Origin: Burkholderiales bacterium
GTDB lineage: Bacteria > Pseudomonadota > Gammaproteobacteria > Burkholderiales > Burkholderiaceae_C
Length of the DNA stretch: 64,000 nt
Direction of reading: 5' to 3'
NCBI GenBank assembly: GCA_003963115.1
Contig: RXJQ01000037.1
Location: 62,001-126,000 of the forward strand
The stretch's first letter is position 1. Each line of letters starts with the position of its first letter. Below the pieces are notes generated by a model, which worked only from the letters and a program-made list of their open reading frames with translations, was not told the DNA's origin and searched no databases. The translations under genes and the position numbers were made by a program. Positions 19,319 to 39,544 of the stretch are shown piece by piece.

Positions 19319-19975
19319 TTATGCCTTGAGCATGCCCTTGGTTTCGATGAAGCCGATCACCTGGTCCAGGCCGGACTGGGTCTTGAGATTGGTCATCACG
19401 AAGGGGCGCACTCCTTGTGAGGTCTGGCGCATGCGCTTGGTGTCGGACTCCATGATCTCCAGATTCGCACCGACGTAGGGCGCGAGGTCGGTCTTGTTGA
19501 TCACGAAGAGGTCGCTCTTGGTGATGCCGGGGCCGCCCTTGCGCGGGATCTTTTCGCCGGCTGCCACGTCGATCACGTAGATGGTGAGGTCGCTGAGTTC
19601 CGGGCTGAAGGTGGCCGCCAGGTTGTCGCCGCCCGACTCGATGAAGACGATGTCCGCATTGGGGAATTTGGACAGCATGCGGTCGACGGCTTCGAGGTTG
19701 ATGGAGGCGTCTTCGCGGATGGCGGTGTGCGGGCAGCCGCCAGTCTCCACGCCCATGATGCGCTCGGGGTCGAGCGCGCCGGCCACGGTCAGCAGGCGCT
19801 GGTCTTCCTTGGTGTAGATGTCGTTGGTGACGACGACGAGGTCATAGCTGTTGCGCATGGTCTTGCACAACATTTCAACCAGGGTCGTCTTGCCGGAGCC
19901 GACGGGGCCGCCCACGCCCACGCGCAGGGGCGGGAGCTTCTTGGTGCGGCCAGGGATGTTGTGCAGATTGCTCAT
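19319..19975 (-). CDS. ureG: Urease accessory GTPase UreG
   Basis: 218 residues. P-loop [11 protein letters not shown], the metal-relay motif [20 protein letters not shown] (Cys-Pro-His binds nickel between dimer subunits), [18 protein letters not shown] and the guanine-specificity motif NKTDLA. GTP hydrolysis drives nickel insertion into apo-urease with UreF and UreD. Last gene of the minus-strand operon; its start overlaps the ureF stop by 4 bp. Confidence 0.97.
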
Positions 19976-20739
19976 GATCGGAAAAGGCGTGAGTACTGGG
20001 TTTCGTGCTGGCTGCTGAGAATGGCCAGCATGGGTGTGAAGGCCTGGCGCTGCGTGTCGGGCAGCGTCATGGCGTGGTCGATGGCCGGTGGGATCTCGTT
20101 GATCAGGGCTTGGAGGATGCGCTGGCCGGCCGACTGGCCAAGCGGTACGGCCTTGATGGCGGCCTGCACCATGTTCTCGGCCCAGCCGAAGGCGAAGCTC
20201 AGCAGGGCCTCACGGAGGGTGTCCTCGCCACCGCCACGTGGATCTGGCAACGGCAGGCAGTGCGCCACGGCCAGGGCAAAGGCCACGGGCCAGGTTGGGG
20301 CGGGGCCCAGGGCCGCGCATTGCTGGAGCTGCTGCAAACGCGCTTCATCGCTGGACGAGGCGCTGCCACCTGGCTGATTGCGCAGCCATTCGACCAGCGA
20401 GCGGCCCATCTGTTCGGCTTGCAGCCGCAGCTCGCTGGTCTCGCGTGTCTGCACGACCCAGTCATTGAGCTCGGTCAGGCGTGCCAGGTCGCCACGTTGC
20501 CAGGCGGGCACGGCTCGCGCCACGACGGCCAGGTCGGCGCGGGCCAGGCTCAGGTGCAATTGGTCTTGCAGCCAGGCTGCTGCCTCTTGCTCTTTGCTGA
20601 TGCGGCCGGAATCCACGGCGGCTTCCAGGGCCTCGGAGTAGCTGAAGCCGCCCACGGGCAAGGCCGGAGAGGCCAGCCACATCAGCTGCAGGCGGGCGCT
20701 GGGGCTTAGTGGCGCTTGTCGGGGGGCAACACGGGGCAT
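19972..20739 (-). CDS. ureF: Urease accessory protein UreF
   Basis: 255 residues, all-helical UreF family: [20 protein letters not shown] near the N-terminus and [20 protein letters not shown] toward the C-terminus. UreF bridges UreD and UreG in the activation complex and acts as a fidelity checkpoint for nickel delivery. It lies 15 bp after the ureE stop and is coupled to ureG. The N-terminus ([18 protein letters not shown]) is unstructured. Confidence 0.96.
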
Positions 20740-20754
20740 CAGCGACGAGGCATT

Positions 20755-21360
20755 TCAGTGTTTGTGGCCGTGCCCATGGCCGTGATCATGATCGTGGTTG
20801 CAGCCTGGGCCATGCACGTGCGGTGTCGCGGCGGGCTTGATGGCGATGCCGATAGGCTTGCCGCGCGTGGCGGGTTCGGCATGGGCATGACCGTGGTCAT
20901 GGCCACCAGCAGCATAGGCACCGCCTTCCGGCTCGAAAGCAGCCTGTTCTTCCTTCACGGTCAGGTGCATGGCGCGCAGCATGTCGGCCAGCACATGGTC
21001 AGGTTCGATCTTGAGGTGGTCGGCTTGCAACTCGATCTGCACGTGGCGGTTGCCCAGGTGATAGGCCGCCCGCACCAGATCGAAAGCACTCCCATGTTCG
21101 GCGCAAGGTCTGACCACCAGCACGGGCTGCGGCGCAGCCTGCACGCGGATCATGGTGCCGTCTTCGGCAACCAGCACGTCGCCGCCGCGCACCACGGTGC
21201 CGCGCGGCAGGAAGACGCCCAGCGCACGCCCCGTGCTGTCGGTGGCATCAAAGCGGCTCTTCTGGCGCACATCCCAGCCCAGTTCGATGGTGGCGGCGCG
21301 CTTGAGCAGCACGGAGGCCAGGCCCTGGCCTTGGGGAAGGAGCTTGTTGACGGTCAGCAT
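20755..21360 (-). CDS. ureE: Urease nickel metallochaperone UreE
   Basis: 201 residues. The N-terminal peptide-binding domain (MLTVNKLLPQGQGLASVLLK) and central metal-binding domain (YHLGNRHVQIEL) are followed by a histidine-rich tail (PHVHGPGCNHDHDHGHGHGH) that would bind several nickel ions. It hands nickel to UreG. A segment of about 35 residues (PEGGAYAAGGHDHGHAHAEP) adds further histidines. Gap to ureC is 39 bp. Confidence 0.96.
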   Translation of the reverse strand: MLTVNKLLPQGQGLASVLLKRAATIELGWDVRQKSRFDATDSTGRALGVFLPRGTVVRGGDVLVAEDGTMIRVQAAPQPVLVVRPCAEHGSAFDLVRAAYHLGNRHVQIELQADHLKIEPDHVLADMLRAMHLTVKEEQAAFEPEGGAYAAGGHDHGHAHAEPATRGKPIGIAIKPAATPHVHGPGCNHDHDHGHGHGHKH

Positions 21361-21399
21361 GGGTGCGAGAGAAAAGCGAGTCGAAGCCGCCAGTGTCCG

Positions 21400-23127
<1,728 letters not shown>

Positions 23128-23158
23128 CTTGCTTGTCCTTCTTGGGATGGAGGGGGAC

Positions 23159-23464
23159 TCAGAGCTTGCCCTGGACCAGGCCTCTGAAGCCGTAGACCAC
23201 GCGGTCGCCCGCGTAGTCGACCAGCTCGACCGTGCGCTGCTGACCCGGCTCGAAGCGCACGGCCGTGCCTGATGCGATGTTCAGGCGCGTGCCTTTGGCA
23301 GCAGCGCGGTCGAAGCGCAAGGCGCCGTTGGTCTCGGCGAAGTGGTAGTGCGAGCCGACCTGGATGGGTCGGTCGCCGGCGTTCTCCACCACGAGGGTGA
23401 GGGTGCGGCGGCCTGGGTTGAGCGCGAGGTCCGGGCCGTCAGTGAGGAGTTCGCCTGGGATCAT
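23159..23464 (-). CDS. ureB: Urease subunit beta
   Basis: 101 residues, begins [20 protein letters not shown] and contains the signature [40 protein letters not shown]. It is a separate polypeptide, as in most bacteria, forming the (ABC)3 trimer with UreA and UreC. Confidence 0.97.
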
Positions 23465-23528
23465 GGCGTGGTCCTTTGGAATTAGATGAAAGACTTGAAC
23501 GAAGTCTTGGTTGAATCGCTGGTGGCGG

Positions 23529-24185
23529 TCAGAGCGCGGCGGCCACGGCAGGCGTGAGCAGACCCAGGCCCATCAGCGCAACGCCTGCACCAGCCAGGCG
23601 GGAAGCCCAACGGCGTGCGCCATGGCCTTGATCGCGCAAGGCCAGTCCGACACCCATGCCCAAGCCGTGCAGCACGGCGGTGCTGGCCACCATGCCGGTG
23701 AGCGCTGCCATCGCCTGACCACCCAGTTCCGTGCCGTGGGCCAGGCCATGGCACAAGGCGAACGCCGCGACCAGGGCTGCGCCCATGCCTGTGCTCAAAC
23801 GCAGGCGCGTGGCGACCAGCAGGCCCATCACCAGCAGCGAGGCGGCGATCATCGGCTCGACGCCGGGCAGGCGCAGGCCGGCCAATGCCAGCAAGGCACC
23901 GAGCAGCAAGGTGACGGCAAAAGCGGCCGGGGCGGTTAACAAGGAACGCATGCTCTGGCCCGGCTTGCTCAACACGCTCCACGCGCCCACGCTGACCATG
24001 GCGGCCAGGTGATCCAAGCCGGTGAGCGGGTGTAAGGCCCCGGAAGCCAGGCTTTGCAGGGCGTTGCCATCGTGCATGTGCGGGGCGCCATCTGTGCCGA
24101 TGTGCGCCATGGCCAGCGGTGCCGCCACCGAAGCGGCAAGCCCGGCGATGGCCATGATGGTGCGGCGAGTCTGGAGGTTTTGCAT
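23529..24185 (-). CDS. hupE: HupE/UreJ-type nickel permease
   Basis: 218 residues. After a signal-like first helix comes the metal-binding motif [16 protein letters not shown], then about six transmembrane helices ([37 protein letters not shown]) with [15 protein letters not shown] in the middle. HupE/UreJ proteins import nickel for hydrogenase or urease. Its insertion between ureA and ureB is a known arrangement in betaproteobacteria. Confidence 0.9.
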
Positions 24186-24291: not shown

Positions 24292-24594
24292 TCATGCAAT
24301 GGGTTGGTGCACTGTCACCAACTTGGTGCCATCCGGGAAAGTGGCCTCGACCTGGATGTCGGGAATCATCTCTGGCACGCCCTCCATGACCTGATCGCGC
24401 ACGAGCACGGTCTTGCCCTCGCTCATCAGCGCAGCCACGCTCTTGCCGTCACGCGCCCCTTCCATGATGAAGGCCGTGATCAGGGCGACGGCCTCCGGGT
24501 AGTTCAATTTGAGTCCGCGCGCCAGGCGGCGTTCGGCCAGCAAGGCGGCGGTGAAAATCAGCAGCTTGTCTTTTTCGCGAGGGGTGAGTTCCAT
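24292..24594 (-). CDS. ureA: Urease subunit gamma
   Basis: 100 residues, the standard UreA length, from the ATG at 24594 ([20 protein letters not shown]); the open frame extends upstream but without UreA-like sequence. Contains [20 protein letters not shown] and [18 protein letters not shown]. First gene of the urease operon. The usual upstream neighbour ureD is replaced by the divergent permease-kinase gene, 70 bp away. Confidence 0.97.
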
Positions 24595-24664: not shown

Positions 24665-27600
24665 ATGCAAGACCCAGACCAAAACCGTCCAGAGGTGATC
24701 ACCTCATCGGCGCACCGCGATGGCGAACCCGCAGGGGAAGCCCTGCAGCGGGTGGTCAAGGTGCGTCGTGACTACAACAGTTGGGTCGGGTCCGAAACCC
24801 TGGAGGACTACGCCCTGCGCTTCACGCCGCGGTCGGCCCGGCGCTGGAGCGACTGGCGCGTGGCCAACACGGCCTTTGGCGCGGCAGCCTTCCTGGTGCT
24901 CGAAGCCGTCGGCGCGACACTGCTGGTGGAGCATGGTTTCATCAACGCCTTCTGGGCCATCCTGGCCACGGGGCTGATCATCCTGCTGGCGGGCTGGCCG
25001 ATCAGCGTGTATGCGGCTCGCCATGGCCTGGACATGGACCTGCTGACACGCGGTGCGGGCTTTGGTTACATCGGCTCGACCATCACTTCATTGATCTACG
25101 CCTCCTTCACTTTCGTGTTCTTCGCGCTGGAGGCGGCGGTGATGGCCTATGCGCTGGAGCTGGCCTTTGATATACCGCCGGCCTGGGGCTATTTGGTGTG
25201 CGCGCTGGTGGTGGTGCCGCTGGTCACGCACGGGGTCACCATCATCAGCCGATTGCAACTGATCACCCAGCCGCTGTGGCTGCTGATGCTGGTGCTGCCG
25301 TTTGTCTATGTGTTCAAGGAGCACCCGCACATCCTGCGCGACTTGATGACCTATCCGGGAGATGGGCAGGATCGGGCTGGGTTCGATCTGCTGTCCTTTG
25401 GCTCGGCCATGACGGTGGGCATCGCGCTGATCACGCAGATGGGTGAGCAGGCCGACTACCTGCGCTTCATGCCCGAGCCCAGGCCAGGGCACAAGGCGCG
25501 CTGGCTGGCTGCCGTGTTCGTGGGTGGACCGGGCTGGGTGATCCCGGGGGTGCTCAAGATGCTGGGCGGTGCCCTGCTGGCTTACCTGGCCATCAGCTTT
25601 TCGGTGCCGGTCGATCGGGCCCTGGACCCGAACCAGATGTACCTCGTGGCCTGGGAAAAGATCTTTCCCCGCCAGTCCTGGGCGATCGCGGCGGTGGCCT
25701 TGTTCGTGGTGGTGTCGCAGCTCAAGATCAATGTGACCAATGCCTATGCGGGTTCGCTGGCCTGGTCGAATTTCTTTGCGCGCGTCACGCACAGCCACCC
25801 GGGGCGTGTGGTCTGGGTGGCCTTCAATGCGGTGATCGCGCTGTTGCTGATGGAGCTGAATCTCTTTCAGGCCCTGGGCAAGGTACTGGGGCTATATTCC
25901 AACATCGCCATTGCCTGGATCATGGCGGTGGTGGCCGACCTGGTCGTCAACAAGCCCATGGGGTGGTCGCCCAAGGGCATCGAATTCAAGCGGGCTTACC
26001 TGTATGACGTGAACCCGGTGGGCGTGGGTGCGATGGGGCTGGCCTCGCTGGTGTCGGTGATGGCCTATGTAGGCTGGCTGGGCGAGCTTGCGCAAGCCTT
26101 CTCGGCGGTGATCGCCATGGTGGTGGCTTTCGTGACCTCGCCCTTGATTGCCTGGGCCACCAAGGGCCGCTACTACCTGGCACGCCAGCCTTTGACGCAG
26201 ACCCACGTGGGCCGACCACCCTTCGTGCACGAGCCGCCGCCTGAAGGCGAGGGCGTGCCCTTGAGCAAGGTCATTCGCCTGCGTGCGCTGCATCGCTGCA
26301 CGGTGTGCGAGCGTGAATACGAGGCTGATGACGTCGCCCATTGCCCGGCCTACCAGGGCTTCATCTGCTCGCTGTGCTGCTCGCTGGACGCACGCTGTCA
26401 GGACCTGTGCAAACCTCAGGCGCGCTGGGCCGAACAGTGGCGTGGGCTGGGGCGCAGGCTCATGCCCGAATTTGTCTGGCGGCGCATGGACACCGAGCTG
26501 GGGCAGTTCCTGCTGGTCATGTTCGTGCTGGCGCCTTTGCTGGCCGGCATCTTTGGGCTGGTCTACCAACAGCAGCTGCGTGACCTGGACATCCTGGATC
26601 TCACCTCGACCGGGGCGGCTGCAGACATGCTTCGTGCCGCCTTTGTCAAGGTTTTCACCGCCTTGCTGCTGGTCGTGGGCGTGGTGGCCTGGTGGGTGGT
26701 GCTCACGCACAAGAGCCGCCAGGTGGCGCAGGAGGAATCCAACCGCCAGACCCATCTGCTGGTGCGCGAAATCGAGTCGCACCGCATCACCGATGAAAAG
26801 CTCCAGCAGGCCAAGCAGACGGCCGAACACGCCAACCAGGCCAAGAGCCGCTACATCACCACGGTGAGCCACGAACTGCGCACGCCGCTCAACGGCATCC
26901 TGGGCTATGCCCAATTGCTGGATGAAGACCAGCAGTTGCCCGAGCACGTCAAGCATGCGGTGGGGGTGATCAAGCGCGGGGGCGATCATTTGCTCTCGCT
27001 GATCGAAGGCACGCTGGACATTGCCCGCATCGAAAGCGGCAAGCTGACGCTGGATGTGAAGCCGGTGCGGCTGGGTGAGTTGCTCCAGCAGATCACCGGC
27101 CTGATCGAGCACGAGGCGTGCGCCAAGCACCTGCGCTTCGAGGCCGACATCGACACGGCCTTGCCCGAGGCTGTGCGGGTGGACGAGCGCCGCCTGCGTC
27201 AGATCCTCATCAATGTGCTGGGCAATGCGGTGAAGTTCACCAGCTCAGGGCAGGTGACGCTCAAGGTGCGCTATGCCCGTGAGATTGCCCAGATCGAGAT
27301 CGCCGACACGGGGCCCGGCATTGCCAAGGAGGAGCTGGACAAGGTGTTCGAGCCTTTCGCGCGTGGCTCGTCGGCCGCAGGCAATTCGGCCAGTGGCACC
27401 GGCCTGGGCCTGACCATCAGCAAGATGCTGACCGACTTGATGGGCGGCGAGATGAGCGTGCAAAGCCATCTGGGCCTGGGCACCACCTTCCGCATTCGCC
27501 TGTTCCTGCCGCAGGTGCGCATGGCCGAGGCGATGCGCACGGTGCCGCGTGGCCAGCGCACGGGCTACGTGGGCGAGCGCCGCCGCATCTGGGTGGTGGA

Positions 27601-28237
27601 CAACGAGGAGGCCGATCGGGGGCTGCTGGTACGCGTCCTCGAACCGCTTGGCTTTGAAGTGACGTCGCTGGCCTCCGGCGTGGAGTGCGTGGCGCTGCTG
27701 CGCAACTGCCCAATGCCACAGATGCCCCATGCCTTGTTCATGGACCTGGCCATGCCGGGGCTGGATGGCTGGGCCACGCTGCGGGCGATCCGGGAGGGGG
27801 CGCTCAGTGATGCACCCGCGGCCATCGTGTCGGCCAATGCCTTTGACAAGGCCTTGGACAACGACGTGGGCATCACGGCTGATGATTTCATCGTCAAGCC
27901 CGTGCGCGTGCCAGAGCTGCTGGACTGGCTGGGCCACCGCTTGAATCTGGCCTGGATCGAGGTGGAGCGCGCGCCTTTGCCTGTTTCAGTCTTGGTGCAC
28001 GATGCGCCTGAGTCAAATCAGGCCTTGCCGTCTCTCAACGCCTTGCGCAGCCTGGAAGACCAGATCCACGCAGGCTATATGCGGGGCGTGCACAAGGCCC
28101 TGGACCAGATTGCGTCGGCCGAGCCCCATTGCGATGCCTTCGTGCAGCGCCTGCGGGCCATGGCCAAGCAGTTCCAGCTCGATGCAATGGCGTCCCTGCT
28201 GAAGGAATCGCTGTCGCAGGCACAATCGCGTGTCTGA
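24665..28237 (+). CDS. NCS1 permease - cysteine cluster - hybrid histidine kinase fusion
   Basis: 1190 residues. About 40-515 is a complete 12-helix NCS1 (purine/cytosine/hydantoin permease) domain: [60 protein letters not shown]. Residues 545-582 hold eight cysteines (CTVC, C, CSLCC, C, C), a probable zinc or Fe-S module. Two further helices at about 622-645 and 660-685 lead to HisKA (phosphoacceptor His736 in [12 protein letters not shown]) and HATPase ([30 protein letters not shown]). A receiver follows (about 975-1085, Asp1027 in [12 protein letters not shown]), then a short tail. It is a transporter used as a sensor, divergent from urease and followed by a response regulator 23 bp downstream. 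The ligand is unknown; urea, allantoin-like compounds or a nucleobase are candidates. Confidence 0.9.
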
Positions 28238-28260
28238 AACCTTGCCTTTCCCAGCCCATC

Positions 28261-29220
28261 ATGTTCGAGAGACTCGACCGCAGCCGTACCGACGTCGTGC
28301 TCATCGTTGACGATGTGCCGGACAACCTCTCCCTGCTGCACGACGCACTCGACGAAGAGGGCTACACCGTGCTGGTGGCCACGCATGGCGAGGCCGCGCT
28401 GCAGCGCGCCAGCCAGGCGGTGCCCGACATCATCTTGCTGGATGCCATCATGCCGGGCATCGATGGCTTCGAGGTGGCACGGCGCCTGAAGGCTCAGCCT
28501 GAAACCAGCCACATCCCCATCATCTTCATGACGGGCTTGAGCGAGACCGAGCACGTGGTGGCCGCATTCGAAGCGGGCAGCGTGGACTACGTGGTCAAGC
28601 CCATCCGGCCACGCGAGGTGATGGCACGCATCGCCGCCCACATGCAGAGCGCCCGCCAGGCCCGACAGGCGCGCAATGCGCTGGATGCCTTCGGTCATGC
28701 CTCGCTGACCGTGCGTGTGAGCGATGGCCGCGTGCTGTGGCAGACCCCGCTGGCGCGCAAGCTGCTGCAGGACTATTTCGACACACCCGAATCTGTGGCG
28801 CCGCTGGAGATGGCGGCCTGGCTCCAGCAGGCGGCACCGCGCCTGGCGCAAGACATCGCTCAGGGCACGGCACCGGTGAGCGCGCCCGTATGGGCCGTCA
28901 ACCAGGCAGGCCGGCGCCTGAGCTTCACGCTGCACCAACCCACGGGCGAAGACGAATGGCTGCTGGTGATGCAGGAAACGTCTGACCAGGCCGCGATGGA
29001 CGCGCTGAGCCAGGAGTTCAAGCTCACGGCGCGCGAAGGCGAGGTGCTCTACTGGGTGGTCAAGGGCAAGACCAACCGTGACATTGGCGACATCCTGGGC
29101 AACAGCCCCGCCACGGTCAAGAAGCAGCTGGAGCACATCTTTGCCAAAATGGGTGTTGAAACCCGCACCGCTGCGGCCGGCCTGGCCATGAGCCGGGTGG
29201 CGCAACTCAAAGCCCGCTGA
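28261..29220 (+). CDS. Response regulator, REC plus LuxR-type HTH
   Basis: 319 residues from the ATG at 28261; the upstream open frame overlaps the kinase and is not family-like. Receiver at about 10-130 (VLIVDDVPDNLSLLHDALDE, phosphorylated Asp in ILLDAIMPGIDGF, Lys in YVVKPIRP). A middle region of about 110 residues looks like a degenerate PAS domain. The C-terminal LuxR/GerE HTH (about 253-310) reads KLTAREGEVLYWVVKGKTNR then LGNSPATVKKQLEHIFAKMG. Partner of the upstream hybrid kinase by position. Targets are unknown; the adjacent urease operon is the first to test. Confidence 0.9.
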   Translation: MFERLDRSRTDVVLIVDDVPDNLSLLHDALDEEGYTVLVATHGEAALQRASQAVPDIILLDAIMPGIDGFEVARRLKAQPETSHIPIIFMTGLSETEHVVAAFEAGSVDYVVKPIRPREVMARIAAHMQSARQARQARNALDAFGHASLTVRVSDGRVLWQTPLARKLLQDYFDTPESVAPLEMAAWLQQAAPRLAQDIAQGTAPVSAPVWAVNQAGRRLSFTLHQPTGEDEWLLVMQETSDQAAMDALSQEFKLTAREGEVLYWVVKGKTNRDIGDILGNSPATVKKQLEHIFAKMGVETRTAAAGLAMSRVAQLKAR

Positions 29221-33474: not shown

Positions 33475-33503
33475 TACGCCACACGATACGCCATGTGGCG
33501 TAT
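33475..33503. promoter_or_regulatory. Cluster of TACGCCA half-sites upstream of urtA
   Basis: TACGCCA occurs at 33475-33481 and 33487-33493, and its complement TGGCGTA at 33496-33502. The second and third copies form ATACGCCA-TG-TGGCGTAT, an 8-bp perfect dyad; the first and third form TACGCCACA...TGTGGCGTA, a 9-bp dyad. Two overlapping inverted repeats with a shared arm suggest a dimer or tetramer binding site controlling urtABCDE. Confidence 0.55.
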
Positions 33504-33634: not shown

Positions 33635-34912
33635 ATGAGCATTTCCCGTCGCAGCGCCGTCCAATCGTTGACTGCCGTCGCCCTGGGCGTCGCCGGTCTG
33701 GCTTTCAGCACCATGGCGCAAGCCGCCGACACCATCAAAGTGGGCGTGCTGCACTCGCTGTCGGGCACCATGGCCATCTCAGAGACCGTGTTGAAGGACA
33801 CCGTCTTGATGACCATCGACGAGATCAACGCCAAGGGCGGCCTGCTGGGCAAGAAGCTGGAGCCCGTGGTGGTCGACCCCGCATCCAACTGGCCTCTGTT
33901 TGCAGAAAAGGCCAAGCAACTGCTGACCCAGGACAAAGTGGCCGTCGTGTTCGGTTGCTGGACCTCGGTGTCGCGCAAGTCTGTGCTCCCCGTCTTCAAG
34001 GAAAACAACGGCTTGCTGTTCTACCCCGTGCAGTACGAAGGTGAAGAACTCGAGAAGAACGTGTTCTACACCGGTGCCGCACCCAACCAGCAGGCCATTC
34101 CCGCCGTGGAATACCTGATGAGCAAGGACGGCGGTTCGGCCAAGCGCTTCGTGCTGCTGGGCACAGACTATGTGTACCCGCGCACGACCAACAAGATCCT
34201 GCGCGCCTTCCTGAAGTCCAAGGGTGTGAAGGAAGAGGACATCATGGAGGAGTACACCCCCTTCGGTCACTCCGACTACCAGACCATCATCGCCAAGATC
34301 AAGAAGTTCGCTTCTGAAGGCAAGAAGACGGCCGTGGTCTCCACCATCAACGGCGACTCCAACGTGCCTTTCTACAAGGAACTCGGCAACCAAGGCCTGA
34401 AGGCCAAGGACGTGCCCGTGGTGGCCTTCTCGGTGGGTGAAGAAGAGCTGCGCGGCGTGGACACCAAGCCTCTGGTCGGCCACCTGGCCGCCTGGAACTA
34501 CTTCATGTCCGTCAAGAACCCGACCAACGACGAGTTCATCAAGAAGTGGTCGGCCTATGCCAAGGCCCACAACATCGCCGGTCACAAGGACAAGCCTCTG
34601 ACCAATGACCCGATGGAAGCCACCTACATCGGCATCAACATGTGGGCCCAGGCCGTCAAGAAGGCCGGTTCGACGGATACCGACAAGGTGATCGCGGCCA
34701 TGGGTGGTCAGACCTTCAAGGCCCCTGGTGGCTTCATGTCCACGATGGACGAGAAAAACCACCACCTGCACAAGCCCGTGTTCATCGGCGAAGTCAAGGC
34801 CGATGGCCAGTTCAAGGTGGTGTGGAAGACCCCTGGCCCGGTCAAGGCCCAGCCATGGAGCCCCTATATCGAGGGCAACGACAAGAAGAAGGACGAGCCT
34901 GACACCAAGTGA
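33635..34912 (+). CDS. urtA: Urea ABC transporter, substrate-binding protein UrtA
   Basis: 425 residues from the ATG at 33635, with AAAGGAG about 8 bp upstream. Signal peptide (RRSAVQSLTAVALGVAGLAF, then MAQAADTIKVGVLHSLSGTM). Type I periplasmic-binding fold of the urea/amide branch with YEGEELEKNVFYTGAAPNQQ and TYIGINMWAQAVKKAGSTDT. Captures urea in the periplasm for UrtBCDE. Separated from urtB by a strong terminator, which should give excess binding protein. Confidence 0.96.
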   Translation: MSISRRSAVQSLTAVALGVAGLAFSTMAQAADTIKVGVLHSLSGTMAISETVLKDTVLMTIDEINAKGGLLGKKLEPVVVDPASNWPLFAEKAKQLLTQDKVAVVFGCWTSVSRKSVLPVFKENNGLLFYPVQYEGEELEKNVFYTGAAPNQQAIPAVEYLMSKDGGSAKRFVLLGTDYVYPRTTNKILRAFLKSKGVKEEDIMEEYTPFGHSDYQTIIAKIKKFASEGKKTAVVSTINGDSNVPFYKELGNQGLKAKDVPVVAFSVGEEELRGVDTKPLVGHLAAWNYFMSVKNPTNDEFIKKWSAYAKAHNIAGHKDKPLTNDPMEATYIGINMWAQAVKKAGSTDTDKVIAAMGGQTFKAPGGFMSTMDEKNHHLHKPVFIGEVKADGQFKVVWKTPGPVKAQPWSPYIEGNDKKKDEPDTK

Positions 34913-35028: not shown

Positions 35029-35050
35029 CTGCGCATTGCCGAAACAGGAC

Positions 35051-36658
35051 ATGTCTGTGAGCACACATCTGAGGCGGGCCTTGAAGGCCACCTTGCTGAC
35101 ACTGGGGCTGAGCTTTGCGCTGGGTGCGCATCAGGCCCACGCGCTGACGGCCGAGGAGGCCTACTCGATTTCCGCAGGCGACAACGACGCCCGCATTGCG
35201 GCCTTGCAGAAGCTGGTAGCCAAGGGCGATCCGGCTTTGCCGGCGTTTCTGGAAGCGCTGGCAGGCGATACCGTGAAGGTGGCGGGCAACAAGGCCTACA
35301 TCGTCAATGGCGATGAAGTGAAGGACGCTGTGACCGGCGAGCCGGCCAAGCTGCCCGATGACGCCGAAGACGTCGTCAACAACAACCGCATGAGCAGTGA
35401 GATCGACGCGGCCTTGGCGGCAGGCAAGCTGGCCTCCAAGGATGTGGCGGAGCGGGCAGAGGCCGTGGATGCGCTGTCCAAGGCAGCCGATGAGTCCAAG
35501 CTGGGTGTGATCGACAAAGCGCTGGCCAACGAGACCGATCCCAAACTCAAGGCGCAGCTCAAGACCGTGCGTGCCAAGGCCATGCTGATGGCCCAAGCGC
35601 CTGCCACGCGTATCGAGGCCGCGCAATCACTGGGCAGCGATGCCAGCCCTGAAGCGCGGGCACTCCTGATGGAGCGCATGGCCGACAGTGCCGAAACCGA
35701 CGCCGCCGTGAAGGGGGCGCTGCAAGCCGCGCTCGACAAGGTCAACCGCAAGCTGGCCTGGGGCGAGTACGCCGGTGTGCTGTTCACGGGGGTGAGCCTG
35801 GGCTCGATCCTGCTGTTGGCGGCCCTGGGGCTGGCCATCACCTATGGTCTGATGGGCGTGATCAACATGGCCCATGGCGAGCTGATGATGATCGGCGCCT
35901 ATGCCACGTATGTGGTCCAGAACGTCTTCCGCAACCATTTCCCGGGGGCGTTCGACTGGTACATCGTGCCTGCGGTGCCCGCTTCCTTCCTGGCTGCGGC
36001 ACTGGTGGGTGCCGTACTGGAGCGGGGCGTGTTCCGCTTCCTCTATGGCCGACCGCTCGAAACACTGCTGGCCTCCTGGGGCGTGAGCCTGATGCTGATG
36101 CAGGGCGTGCGCAGCCTGTTCGGTGCGCAGAACGTGCAGGTGGAGAACCCTTCGTGGATGTCCGGTGGCTTCGATGTACTCACCAACCTGACCTTGCCCT
36201 ACAACCGCCTGGTCATCATCGCGTTTGCCGCCTTGGTGCTGCTGGGCATGACCCTGCTGATCGCCAAGACCCGCATGGGCCTGTTCGTGCGCAGCGTTAC
36301 CCAGAACCGCCCGATGGCGTCATGCATGGGCGTCAACACGGCGCGGGTCGACACCATGGCTTTCTCGCTGGGTGCAGGCATTGCCGGCCTGGCGGGCTGC
36401 GCGCTTTCGCAGATCGGCAATGTGGGGCCTGACCTTGGCCAGAGCTACATCGTCGACTCCTTCATGGTCGTGGTGCTGGGTGGAGTCGGGCAGATCGCCG
36501 GCACCGTCTATGCCGCATTGGGCCTGGGCTTGATCAACAAATTCCTCGAAGGATGGGCGGGCGCCGTGCTGGCCAAGATCATGGTGCTGGTCATCGTGGT
36601 CATCTTCATCCAGAAGCGTCCGCAAGGCCTGTTCGCCATGAAGGGCCGAGAGGTTTGA
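35051..36658 (+). CDS. urtB: Urea ABC transporter permease UrtB
   Basis: 535 residues from the ATG at 35051 with ACAGGAC upstream. Signal peptide, then the roughly 230-residue N-terminal extracytoplasmic helical region typical of UrtB (AEEAYSISAGDNDARIAALQ), then a LivH-type permease (about 240-535; GLAITYGLMGVINMAHGELM, GLFVRSVTQNRPMASCMGVN, VVVLGGVGQIAGTVYAALGL). Confidence 0.95.
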   Translation: MSVSTHLRRALKATLLTLGLSFALGAHQAHALTAEEAYSISAGDNDARIAALQKLVAKGDPALPAFLEALAGDTVKVAGNKAYIVNGDEVKDAVTGEPAKLPDDAEDVVNNNRMSSEIDAALAAGKLASKDVAERAEAVDALSKAADESKLGVIDKALANETDPKLKAQLKTVRAKAMLMAQAPATRIEAAQSLGSDASPEARALLMERMADSAETDAAVKGALQAALDKVNRKLAWGEYAGVLFTGVSLGSILLLAALGLAITYGLMGVINMAHGELMMIGAYATYVVQNVFRNHFPGAFDWYIVPAVPASFLAAALVGAVLERGVFRFLYGRPLETLLASWGVSLMLMQGVRSLFGAQNVQVENPSWMSGGFDVLTNLTLPYNRLVIIAFAALVLLGMTLLIAKTRMGLFVRSVTQNRPMASCMGVNTARVDTMAFSLGAGIAGLAGCALSQIGNVGPDLGQSYIVDSFMVVVLGGVGQIAGTVYAALGLGLINKFLEGWAGAVLAKIMVLVIVVIFIQKRPQGLFAMKGREV

Positions 36659-36659
36659 C

Positions 36660-36735
36660 CCACCCCCTACACGCTTCGCGTGCCCCCTCGAGGGGGCGCA
36701 GCCGACGGCCCGGCAGAGCCGGATCCGTGGCTGCC
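36660..36735. repeat. REP-like palindromic intergenic element between urtB and urtC
   Basis: Three hairpins in tandem: CACGC-TTC-GCGTG (36670-36682), the 16-bp perfect palindrome GCCCCCTCGAGGGGGC (36682-36697), and CCGGC-AGA-GCCGG (36710-36722). The sequence resembles dispersed intergenic repeats common in Comamonadaceae. It interrupts the urt operon and could modulate mRNA stability between urtB and urtC. Only one copy is in the window. Confidence 0.65.
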
Positions 36736-36785
36736 GCAGGGTTGTGGTCTGTGCTCTGCTTGGATTGCTTGCTATTGCTGAAGTG

Positions 36786-37937
36786 ATGAACACCATGACG
36801 ATAAGTTCTGTTCTCAACATGCCGCCGACGCCGGCATTGACCGTGCCACGCAGTGCGCTGGGCTCCAAAGGGTGGACAGCCGTGGCTGCCGCCGTGGTCG
36901 CGGTGCTCGTGTTGGCGCCCGTGCTGAACCTGCTGGTCTCGCCGGACTCGGCGTTTCACCTGTCCGACTACGCCCTGGCCCTGATCGGCAAGATCATGTG
37001 CTATGCCATCTGTGCGCTGGCCATGGACTTGATCTGGGGCTACACCGGCATCCTGTCGCTGGGCCATGGCCTGTTCTTCGCGCTGGGTGGCTACGCCATG
37101 GGCATGTACCTGATGCGCCAGATCGGCCGTGACGGCAGCTACCACAGCGATCTGCCCGACTTCATGGTCTTCCTGGACTGGAAGCAGGTGCCCTGGCACT
37201 GGATGTGGAGCGAGTCCTTCATCGGCCAGGCCATCCTGGTGGTGCTGGTGCCGGGGCTGCTGGCTTTCGTGTTCGGCTTCTTCGCCTTCCGCTCACGCAT
37301 CAAGGGCGTGTACTTCTCCATCATCACCCAGGCCATGACCTTCGCGGCCATGCTGCTGTTCTTCCGCAATGAAACGGGCTTCGGCGGCAACAACGGCTTC
37401 ACGGACTTCAAGCGCATCATGGGCATTCCCATTGCGCAGCCGTCCACCCGCATGGTGCTGTTCGTGCTCACGGGTCTCACCCTCATTGGCTTTTACCTGA
37501 TGGCCCGCTGGTTGGTGAACACCAAGTTCGGCCGCGTGCTGCAGGCCATCCGCGATGCCGAGAGCCGCGTCATGTTCTGCGGCTACAACCCGCTGGCTTA
37601 CAAGCTGGCCATCTGGACGCTGTCGGCCGTGATGTGCGGCATTGCCGGTGCGCTGTATGTGCCGCAGGTGGGCATCATCAACCCCAGCGAGATGTCGCCG
37701 GCCTCGGGCATCGAGATCGCGATCTGGGCGGCCGTGGGTGGCCGTGCCACGCTGATCGGCCCGATCATCGGTGCCTTCTTCGTCAATGGCGCCAAGAGCT
37801 GGTTCACGGTGGCCTTCCCCGAGTTCTGGCTGTACTTCCTGGGGGCACTGTTCATCCTGGTGACCCTGTTCCTGCCTGATGGCATCGTCGGCGGCGTCAA
37901 GAAGCTGCTCAACAAGAACGCCGAGGTGAAAGCATGA
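36786..37937 (+). CDS. urtC: Urea ABC transporter permease UrtC
   Basis: 383 residues from the ATG at 36786 (MNTMTISSVLNMPP); a second ATG is 9 bp on. LivM-type permease with about ten helices: CALAMDLIWGYTGILSLGHG, FGFFAFRSRIKGVYFSIITQ, FGRVLQAIRDAESRVMFCGY, AIWAAVGGRATLIGPIIGAF. Pairs with UrtB. Its stop overlaps urtD by 4 bp. Confidence 0.95.
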   Translation: MNTMTISSVLNMPPTPALTVPRSALGSKGWTAVAAAVVAVLVLAPVLNLLVSPDSAFHLSDYALALIGKIMCYAICALAMDLIWGYTGILSLGHGLFFALGGYAMGMYLMRQIGRDGSYHSDLPDFMVFLDWKQVPWHWMWSESFIGQAILVVLVPGLLAFVFGFFAFRSRIKGVYFSIITQAMTFAAMLLFFRNETGFGGNNGFTDFKRIMGIPIAQPSTRMVLFVLTGLTLIGFYLMARWLVNTKFGRVLQAIRDAESRVMFCGYNPLAYKLAIWTLSAVMCGIAGALYVPQVGIINPSEMSPASGIEIAIWAAVGGRATLIGPIIGAFFVNGAKSWFTVAFPEFWLYFLGALFILVTLFLPDGIVGGVKKLLNKNAEVKA

Positions 37938-38827
37938 CACCTGAACTGTTGGAGGCCGGCGCCGAAGCGCTGCACAAGCATCAGCACCCCAACAACGCCG
38001 GCGAGTCGGGCGGGCGTGCGGCCTCTTATGGCCGGGTGGTCGAGCCCGACCAGCTGGATGTGACGCACGGCTCGATCCTCTACCTCGACGACATCTCCGT
38101 GAGCTTCGATGGCTTCAAGGCACTCAACAAGCTGTGCCTGAACATCGCCGTGGGTGAGATGCGCTGCATCATCGGCCCCAACGGTGCGGGCAAAACCACG
38201 ATGATGGACGTGATCACGGGCAAGACCAGGCCCGATGCGGGCACGGCCTATTTCGGCTCCACCATCGACCTGCTGGCCCGACGCGAAAACGAGATCGCCC
38301 AGATCGGCATTGGGCGCAAGTTCCAAAAGCCCACGGTGTTCGAGCAGCTCAGCGTATTCGAGAACCTGGAGCTGGCCCTCAAGGCAGACCGCCGTGCGCG
38401 GGCCTCGGTGTTCTTCCGCCTCAAGAGCGAACAGCTCGATCGCATTGGCGAGATGCTCAAGCTCATCCACTTGAAGGATCAGGCACAGCGGACGGCAGGC
38501 TTGCTGTCGCACGGCCAAAAGCAATGGCTGGAGATCGGCATGCTGCTGATGCAAGACCCCAAGCTGCTCCTGCTCGACGAGCCCGTGGCCGGCATGACCG
38601 ATGAAGAAACCGAGCGCACGGCTGAGCTCTTTCTCTCGCTGGAAGGCGCGCACTCGCTGGTGGTGGTCGAGCACGACATGAAGTTCATCAACGAGCTGAC
38701 CACGCGCGGGGCCAATGCCGATCGCAAGCGTGTGACCGTGCTGCACGAAGGCTCAGTGCTGGCCGAAGGCAAGCTGGCCGATGTGCAGTCGAACGAGAAG
38801 GTGGTCGAGGTTTACTTAGGCCGTTGA
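37934..38827 (+). CDS. urtD: Urea ABC transporter ATPase UrtD
   Basis: 297 residues. Walker A IIGPNGAGKTTMMDVITG, signature LLSHGQKQWLEIGMLLMQDP (LSHGQ, the UrtD/LivG variant) and Walker B LLLLDEPVAGMTDEETE. A leader of about 45 residues precedes the ATPase core. Coupled to urtC by ATGA. Confidence 0.95.
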   Translation: MTPELLEAGAEALHKHQHPNNAGESGGRAASYGRVVEPDQLDVTHGSILYLDDISVSFDGFKALNKLCLNIAVGEMRCIIGPNGAGKTTMMDVITGKTRPDAGTAYFGSTIDLLARRENEIAQIGIGRKFQKPTVFEQLSVFENLELALKADRRARASVFFRLKSEQLDRIGEMLKLIHLKDQAQRTAGLLSHGQKQWLEIGMLLMQDPKLLLLDEPVAGMTDEETERTAELFLSLEGAHSLVVVEHDMKFINELTTRGANADRKRVTVLHEGSVLAEGKLADVQSNEKVVEVYLGR

Positions 38828-38839
38828 GGGATAAGACAG

Positions 38840-39544
38840 ATGTTGAATGTAGAAGCCGTCAACCAGTACTACGGAGGCTCGCACATCCTGCGTGGCCTGG
38901 ACTTTGAAGCCAAGGTCGGTGAGGTCACCGTGATCCTGGGGCGCAATGGCGTGGGCAAGACCACGCTGCTCAAGAGCCTGATGGGTCTGGTGCCGATCAA
39001 GTCCGGGGCGATCAAGCTGGGCGGCCAGGTGATCGACAAGTTCAAGCCCTACGAGCGCGTGCGCATGGGGCTGGGCTATGTACCCCAGGGCCGCGAAATC
39101 TTCGGGCGCCTGACCGTGGCCGAGAACCTGCAGATGGGCCTGGCCAGCAAGCCGGGCAGCACACCCGTGCCCGAGCAGTTGTTCGAGCTCTTCCCCGTGC
39201 TCAAGCAGATGCTGCAACGCCGTGGCGGCGACCTCTCAGGTGGCCAGCAACAGCAACTGGCCATTGCCCGCGCGCTGGCTGCTGGGCCCAAGCTCCTGAT
39301 CCTGGACGAGCCCACTGAAGGTATCCAGCCCAGCATCATCAAGGACATCGGCCGCGCCATCCGCAAGCTGGCCGACGAAGGGCTCAATGGCCAGAAGATG
39401 GCCGTGGTGCTGGTCGAGCAGTTCTACGACTTCGCTGCCGAGCTGGCCGACCAGTACCTGGTGATGGAGCGTGGCGAGATCATCCAGCGGGGCAGGGGTG
39501 TCAGCATGGAAGCCGATGGGGTTCGGCAGTTGATGTCGATCTGA
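38840..39544 (+). CDS. urtE: Urea ABC transporter ATPase UrtE
   Basis: 234 residues, LivF type: Walker A LGRNGVGKTTLLKSLMGL, GYVPQGREIFGRLTVAENLQ, signature LSGGQQQQLAIARAL, Walker B LILDEPTEGIQPSIIKDIGR. Last gene of the urt operon; its last 44 bp overlap the 3' end of the convergent MFS gene. Confidence 0.95.
   Translation: MLNVEAVNQYYGGSHILRGLDFEAKVGEVTVILGRNGVGKTTLLKSLMGLVPIKSGAIKLGGQVIDKFKPYERVRMGLGYVPQGREIFGRLTVAENLQMGLASKPGSTPVPEQLFELFPVLKQMLQRRGGDLSGGQQQQLAIARALAAGPKLLILDEPTEGIQPSIIKDIGRAIRKLADEGLNGQKMAVVLVEQFYDFAAELADQYLVMERGEIIQRGRGVSMEADGVRQLMSI

Follow-up and report, generated by a model that had tools for sequence, protein, structure and literature searches.

A permease-kinase fusion beside urease genes is a candidate sensor of urea and short-chain amides

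Which compound is detected by a sensor kinase that carries an entire permease, and which genes does it control? This question is raised by a gene in a 64,000-nucleotide stretch of a Burkholderiales bacterium genome (assembly GCA_003963115.1, contig RXJQ01000037.1, positions 62,001 to 126,000; here called the window). It lies between urease and urea uptake genes, encodes a permease-like domain, a cluster of eight cysteines and a hybrid histidine kinase, and is followed by a response regulator gene (Table 1). The original prediction, made from the sequence alone, proposed that the protein senses a nitrogen source. This reading is now well supported by the gene neighbourhoods of its relatives, their co-occurrence with formamidase and a shared operator. 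The most probable explanation, in our judgement, is that a transporter-derived sensor kinase and its own regulator control urea uptake here and short-chain amide uptake in sister clades.

All parts do lie in one protein, as had been claimed. A single open reading frame of 1190 amino acids contains the Pfam kinase domains, and the regulator gene begins 23 bp downstream by open reading frame coordinates. The phospho-acceptor residues are present, namely His736 in SHELRTP, Asp1027 of the kinase receiver in DLAMPG and Asp61 of the regulator in DAIMPG. With a HisKA histidine, a HATPase, a receiver aspartate and a linked regulator, this is a hybrid two-component kinase. The Pfam domains of the regulator are Response_reg (12-123) and GerE (254-307), numbered from the second codon so that one must be added. 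A scan of genome contigs found at least 584 relatives, and the best 80 of these, hence its closest kin, were taken as a first set of loci. A regulator homologue was detected in 75 of the 80. Identity to the window protein was calculated over 78 sequences (the window protein plus 77 relatives; of the 80, L039, L051 and L071 are truncated by contig ends and were dropped). Median identity was 0.75 for the permease (residues 46-520), 0.76 for the cysteine module, 0.78 for HisKA, 0.67 for the HATPase, 0.63 for the receiver and 0.50 for the two extra helices, with 0.05 for the linker preceding the cysteines. Conservation of the permease part equals that of the kinase, which argues that the permease pocket is in use. 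The C-terminal tail of the kinase (residues 1095-1190) is weakly conserved (0.31) and has no invariant histidine, and no Pfam match to an HPt domain was found there.

Gene neighbourhoods were scored in 58 stretches from whole genomes, using probes from the window and loci L111, L114 and L150; one stretch (L167) holds a distant stand-alone permease and was excluded, leaving 57 fusions. Formamidase genes accompany 38 of them (36 with fmdD and fmdA, 20 of these with amiE too, and two with fmdA only) and urea genes 17 (13 with urease genes and four with urtA only). The other two fusions (L144, L168) are at contig ends where neither urea nor amide genes are visible, and the L144 genome encodes a formamidase of the same type on another contig. 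One urease-linked genome (G360) also encodes this type of formamidase, roughly 12 kb away from its fusion and beyond the fetched stretch. Among the 80 closest loci, 69 have urease genes, two urtA only and one amiE, making 72 linked loci, and eight show none of these. Thus, nitrogen-source sensing as proposed is supported by the neighbourhoods, co-occurrence and operator, but its restriction to urea is not, given the preponderance of formamidase-linked loci. Wide occurrence amid unrelated neighbours had been named as counting against the idea. The fusion is indeed widespread, its permease-part profile matching 53 of 398 sampled Pseudomonadota genomes (~13%, about one in eight), but 55 of the 57 fusions sit beside urea or amide genes. 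The fusion is present in 38 of the 39 genomes with this type of formamidase (E <= 1e-150), compared with 53 in the full sample of 398 (Fisher p ~1e-39, a value that ignores relatedness).

Annotated examples agree with this picture: a Mitsuaria plasmid (L170; urease), Sinorhizobium meliloti pSymB (urt), Klebsiella (urt and formamidase), Paracoccus, B. vietnamiensis and Methylobacterium. In the single annotated Klebsiella fusion opened, kinase and regulator are divergent from a urtABCDE-formamidase cluster. The window's own genome carries a second fusion on contig C95 (L111, G000:C95:76914-78365), 53% identical over the first 712 residues, with a shorter regulator of 223 amino acids. It adjoins an FmdDEF-type transporter and a formamidase; the domains encoded there are Peripla_BP_5, two BPD_transp_2, two ATP-binding cassette (ABC) ATPases, FmdA_AmdA (E = 8.6e-182) and a zinc-ribbon FmdB-like protein. 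At L114 the neighbours additionally include an AmiE-type carbon-nitrogen hydrolase. Two early-branching, shorter relatives, L142 and L150 (885 and 894 amino acids), probably lack the receiver; they adjoin formamidase genes, and no FmdD-type transporter gene was seen beside them. A quickly built tree with 84 rows requires at least four changes between urea and amide labels when unlabelled rows are not counted, and the urea group needs seven when these are treated as their own state. Amide-linked rows are interleaved, and the betaproteobacterial urease clade of the window (35 rows, 27 urea-linked and eight unlabelled; Shimodaira-Hasegawa-like approximate likelihood ratio test 99) sits among amide-linked relatives. 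The tree suggests that this one architecture was put to use for urea and for amides more than once. The exact number of changes is soft because several long branches were flagged.

The third line of evidence is a predicted operator. An unbiased listing of exact inverted repeats upstream of urtA and fmdD found TACGCC-N4-GGCGTA upstream of urtA in 35/45 loci and ATACG-N8-CGTAT upstream of fmdD in 15/36. In three single-base shuffles per set, any one dyad occurred in at most three (urtA) and two (fmdD) loci. The relaxed form TACG-N8-CGTA precedes 42/45 urtA and 29/36 fmdD genes of fusion loci, against shuffle means of 0.24 and 0.18; the loci are related, so these counts are not independent. As a control, 110 of the 130 genomes with urtA (E <= 1e-100) among the 398 were examined over 600 bp upstream of the match. 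Where the fusion is urea-linked, 14 of 17 genomes had the site; it was present in none of 67 without a fusion (Fisher p ~2e-13, again ignoring relatedness) and in one of 26 with an amide-linked fusion only, where it is a poor palindrome. Eleven of the 17 urea-linked promoters belonged to the motif-discovery set. The six outside it (G019, G389, G225, G379, G142 and G158) all have the site, and in the first four urtA is 40-245 kb from the kinase. Physical linkage thus does not explain it.

The predicted targets are nitrogen-scavenging genes, as would suit a system that reads nitrogen limitation or a product such as ammonium or glutamine and uses the permease as a mere membrane anchor. We consider this rather unlikely, since the association is specific to urea and amide operons, the site precedes urtA only together with a urea-linked fusion, and the permease is conserved like the kinase (0.75 against 0.78), with invariant pocket residues as described below.

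Sites in the 5.38-Mb own genome also favour a sensor of urea and amides. The exact pattern TACGYCN4GRCGTA occurs once, in the window. A looser pattern gives four sites, against one in a backward control: upstream of urtA, upstream of fmdD of the second copy (CTACGTTAATTGACGTAT), upstream of an unlinked aliphatic amidase gene (amiE) and at one unexplained position. The amidase site (L300, G000:C84:107280) is 63 bp before the gene start and the encoded amidase is 82% identical to that of L114, and this gene is a predicted member of the regulon. The fourth site (L299, G000:C67:85156) lies between genes that, by sequence reading, are pirin-like and chloride-channel-like, and is perhaps due to chance. 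In Acinetobacter baumannii (L174) a 19-kb stretch contains one site only, which separates a stand-alone permease from a divergent kinase gene, and in Methylovirgula one site precedes fmdA and another the amidase gene. No operator site was found in seven stand-alone loci without a kinase. A different dyad, GCGCTGA-TCAGCGC, occurs upstream of the kinase in 21/83 urease-linked loci and is not one of the leading dyads in either of the other sets.

What kind of permease is joined to the kinase? It had been called a complete 12-helix NCS1 domain, which proved right in the sense of a divergent branch. Residues 1-520 have zero Pfam matches, the Transp_cyt_pur cut-off not being reached, and a PF02133 search across the whole own genome returned nothing. 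NCBIfam gave a weak match to the cytosine-permease (codB) model (E = 7.5e-6, residues 47-272). No solved chain in the PDB was matched by sequence, either with residues 1-612 up to E 10 or with the family profile A3 up to E 1. Residues 25-712 were modelled with AlphaFold2 from a 55-sequence alignment (mean predicted local distance difference test score 71). Foldseek matched this model to Mhp1 (4d1a, E = 4.8e-9) and CodB (7qoa, E = 1.7e-7); ranks 1-5 are all Mhp1 or CodB (E = 4.8e-9 to 4e-7), with the sialic acid symporter, SGLT, Nramp, LeuT and others of the same wider fold at lower ranks. Based on this fold match and the weak codB match, the modelled domain is a divergent branch of NCS1 permeases. 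SLC5/SSS structures rank behind Mhp1 and CodB, so the domain is not of the SLC5 type, which bears out the distinction from SLC5/STAC kinases drawn earlier.

The binding-site residues of CodB (PMC9379551) were mapped onto the window protein by MAFFT L-INS-i sequence alignment with stand-alone kin. Conservation was counted over 135 sequences (the window and 134 of 138 loci; the stand-alone L167, the too short L039, and L126 and L132 were left out). CodB Gly29 and Phe33 correspond to Gly72 and Phe76, Gln105 to Thr149, Trp108 to Phe152 and Phe204 to Leu255. Position 112, which we take to be the equivalent of Mhp1 Gln121 by counting from what is presumably Trp117 of that protein, is Glu156. Thr149, Leu255, Gln258, Lys354 and Asn356 are each found in 135/135 sequences, Glu156 in 134/135 and Phe152 in 129/135. 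By sequence alignment, then, the aromatic pair that stacks the substrate in NCS1 permeases, a Trp in transmembrane helix 3 (TM3) and a Phe or Trp in TM6, is replaced by Phe152 and Leu255. The loss of the TM6 aromatic with polar residues kept would fit a small, flat, non-aromatic ligand. This bears on the alternative in which a larger molecule, a ureide or nucleobase (allantoin, hydantoin or cytosine), serves as ligand and yields urea on breakdown. The NCS1 fold would suit such a ligand, some stand-alone kin are annotated as allantoin or cytosine permeases, and genes of the xanthine dehydrogenase family edge one fusion stretch (L175), beyond its formamidase genes. We consider this very improbable, however, because all 135 sequences have Leu in place of the TM6 aromatic that forms part of the nucleobase sandwich and the opened stretches of annotated kin show no allantoinase, uricase or cytosine deaminase, whereas formamidase, amidase and urease do occur.

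The invariant Lys354 aligns at or within three residues of the Na2-site Thr278, the TM8 alignment having a three-residue ambiguity. The Na2 site of CbrA holds a lysine (PMC13022988). Together these give a lead, by analogy, towards coupling to protons instead of sodium. Only five positions were found to separate urea from amide clades; the clearest is residue 321, Asp in all four urea clades and Glu in 32/36 amide rows.

The cluster of eight cysteines within residues 545-582 was confirmed. They lie at residues 545, 548, 560, 568, 571, 572, 578 and 582 and are invariant in 78/78 sequences of the closest set and in 135/135 with the whole-genome sequences added; the pattern is present in L039, L126 and L132 too. 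The idea that the module was an invention of the sensor did not survive, as several stand-alone permeases of the branch carry versions with four, five or, once, eight cysteines. The nearest kinase-free permease found is an Acinetobacter protein of 535 amino acids (40% identity over 78% of a 688-amino-acid query), whose gene directly precedes ureEFGJDABC. Nine stand-alone permeases were opened, and six adjoin or lie within 1 kb of urease (two), formamidase (three) or aliphatic amidase (one) genes. That of Methylovirgula (L185) is formamidase-linked, with a fusion and an aliphatic amidase nearby, and that of A. baumannii (L174) adjoins only the fused kinase, divergently. A C-terminal CxxC...CxxC with four or five cysteines occurs in five of the nine (two Acinetobacter, Klebsiella, Moraxella and Streptomyces). 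The Methylovirgula permease has all eight cysteines, and those of Tsukamurella and two Arthrobacter have one or two only. Since six of nine carry four- to eight-cysteine versions, the module belongs to the permease branch, and we infer that the sensor gained its kinase behind it.

The invariance of the cysteines, together with the nickel requirement of urease, could instead point to the module as the true sensor of a metal such as nickel, or of redox state, with the permease only tuning the response. This is distinctly unlikely, as the module is just as invariant in formamidase-linked members without urease in the fetched stretch, and its presence in kinase-free permeases argues for a structural role. 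In both Methylovirgula (L185) and A. baumannii (L174), a stand-alone permease and a fused permease-kinase are encoded next to each other. Each pair is likely to be a transporter and its sensor twin.

Several observations weigh against a dedicated sensor of urea and amides. Eight of the 80 closest loci show no urea or amide gene. One of these is a 4.7-kb contig (L049) and three are cut short on one side (L027, L028, L037), leaving L022, L047, L075 and L076 as real exceptions with both 10-kb flanks visible. Two of the nine stand-alone permeases (Streptomyces and Arthrobacter NicSoilB11) have no urea or amide neighbours. The operator is missing from 7/36 fmdD and 3/45 urtA promoters, and the exact pattern read backwards occurs four times in the own genome against once forwards, so it is rare there and not enriched. 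Upstream of the kinase the strict site is found in 0/87 urea-linked loci and the relaxed site in 1/87; direct control of urease from the gap between kinase and ureA is thus not supported, and urease is not a predicted direct target. The pocket residues barely differ between urea and amide clades, which leaves the difference in ligand without explanation. Finally, whereas architecture, conservation, gene neighbourhoods, co-occurrence and the distribution of the operator are observed, we infer the ligand, transport, phosphotransfer, DNA binding, signalling direction, metal and topology.

A mechanism consistent with these results can be proposed. Periplasmic urea would enter the NCS1-type pocket and set off an alternating-access movement. 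The kinase helix would receive this movement by way of the eight-cysteine module in the cytoplasm, a linker that zinc probably holds together, and then the TM13-14 hairpin. His736 would then autophosphorylate and the phosphate would be transferred to the LuxR-type regulator, either via the receiver or tuned by it. The regulator would bind TACG-N8-CGTA, a site located by comparison ~130 bp upstream of urtA, and activate urtABCDE. For the paralogous system of the own genome, sites of this type lie ahead of the FmdDEF-type amide transporter and of the unlinked amidase, the presumed further targets. More tentatively, the family may be a further independent origin of transporter-kinase fusions, in which the cysteine-bearing C-terminus of a urea or short-chain amide permease was extended with a kinase. 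Such a permease would still be cycling, with a proton-type Lys replacing sodium, and the cell would read the flux or occupancy of a nutrient that it imports. As part of this same doubtful proposal, the family would have switched between urea and amide operons, with at least four changes on the tree, whilst keeping one operator code.

The family is broadly distributed. The best named matches among the matches listed were from Aquabacterium. Nearly all matches to the permease-part profile lie in open frames of ~890-1365 amino acids and are fusions; the exceptions are a 94-amino-acid fragment (G236, counted among the 53) and a distant permease of 552 amino acids (G193:C40). Plasmid searches returned 544 matching records, which include a few stand-alone permeases and a few chromosome-sized records; 506 of them cover no less than 80% of the query, with 342 of them from Klebsiella and 78 from Sinorhizobium. 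Among the matches listed, most annotations read "ATP-binding protein", "response regulator" or "ArcB". A contig titled Akkermansia muciniphila (L057) holds a typical urease-fusion locus with 48-85% identity to the window genes, which looks like a binning error. In the Zoogloea loci L037, L047 and L075 an open reading frame of ~480 amino acids, with a receiver-like motif within its start (DVLIVDDEDD in L037), precedes the fusion. For the window's urea genes we take the name urtA from family knowledge, and the names urtB to urtE from family knowledge and gene order. An Acinetobacter UreD probe detected no ureD gene in the window (best E = 5.6), which does contain the remaining urease genes.

Table 1. 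Coordinates of the fusion, its regulator, the predicted operator and the urea genes of the window
Feature	Position	Strand	Basis
NCS1-permease / 8-Cys / HisKA-HATPase-receiver hybrid kinase	24665..28237	+	single open reading frame, 1190 amino acids; Pfam kinase domains; fold match Mhp1/CodB
NCS1-like 12-helix domain, about residues 46-515	24800..26209	+	AlphaFold2 model and Foldseek
Eight-cysteine module, residues 545-582, predicted cytoplasmic (putative topology)	26297..26410	+	invariance in alignments
Two further helices, model helices residues 611-643 and 649-711 (TM13-14, signalling helix)	26495..26797	+	AlphaFold2 model
HisKA, residues 726-792; His736 codon 26870-26872	26840..27040	+	Pfam E 6.2e-18
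HATPase_c, residues 840-948	27182..27508	+	Pfam E 1.7e-27
Kinase receiver (Response_reg), residues 975-1087, Asp1027	27587..27925	+	Pfam E 1.7e-13
Response regulator, 319 amino acids, receiver (Asp61) and GerE/LuxR-type helix-turn-helix	28261..29220	+	open reading frame; Pfam
Predicted operator ATACGCC-N4-GGCGTAT	33486..33503	.	16-base core 33487-33502 ends 133 bp before urtA ATG
urtA, urea-type ABC solute-binding protein, predicted target	33635..34912	+	open reading frame, homologues; ATG 33635, ~4.4 kb past regulator
urtB (start approximate), urtC, urtD, urtE; ends 36658, 37937, 38827, 39544	35042..39544	+	open reading frames
ureA, divergent from kinase, 70 bp away	24292..24594	-	same order annotated in Mitsuaria plasmid L170
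hupE/ureJ-ureB-ureC-ureE-ureF-ureG	19319..24185	-	open reading frames; homologues; Mitsuaria plasmid L170

How does this system compare with those already described? The closest in kind are the SLC5/STAC kinases CbrA, CrbS and RpuS, which likewise join a transporter domain of the LeuT fold to a histidine kinase and for which a coupling of recognition to phosphorylation has been proposed (PMC13022988, PMC9100948, PMC5715377); CrbS is a hybrid kinase as well. By contrast, the window fusion has an NCS1-type and not an SLC5 domain, a cysteine module and two helices at the position of STAC, a LuxR-type partner, and a urea or amide context where theirs is histidine, acetate or pyruvate. No Pfam or NCBIfam match to a STAC domain was found in the window kinase; whether these libraries hold a STAC model was not checked. 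Relative to CodB and Mhp1, the fold and the positions of the TM1 Gly and TM1 Phe are shared, whereas those proteins have no kinase and the window protein has Leu for the TM6 Phe/Trp, Thr149 for Gln105, Phe152 for Trp108 and a sequence below Pfam detection. The Amt/Rh family, to which the transporter domain of a Kuenenia sensor kinase belongs, is unrelated to NCS1. That ammonium sensor is similar in fusing a transporter domain for a nitrogen compound to a kinase (PMC5764959).

The neighbouring genes also have precedents. The Methylophilus fmdCABDEF cluster for amide and urea uptake and formamidase is induced by formamide and urea (PMC10781810), and its transporter and formamidase genes are of the kinds found beside amide-linked members. 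A putative positive regulator is encoded there, and a transporter-kinase is not mentioned in the accessible text. A urt-like transporter of Bradyrhizobium beside formamidase and amidase genes was argued to carry amide, not urea (PMC3098086), and amidase and urea clusters are described in PMC13209695 and PMC13060141. In the accessible text of all three papers the term "histidine kinase" is absent, as is "two-component" in the latter two. In gene content, the Klebsiella fusion locus resembles a proposed urinary-fitness cluster of a 2026 preprint (PMC13060141).

Within the wording used, we found no description of an NCS1-kinase fusion in the open-licence literature searched. The fusion offers a candidate dedicated sensor of urea and amides, complete with genes, operator and predicted targets, through which bacterial detection of external urea or formamide becomes directly testable. 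It also adds one more fold for studying how a kinase is driven by the movements of transport. Because no description was found, yet transporter-kinase fusions are already known, we rate it as a new family among the known transporter-kinase "transceptors", a group that includes the anammox Amt kinase as well as CbrA with its relatives.

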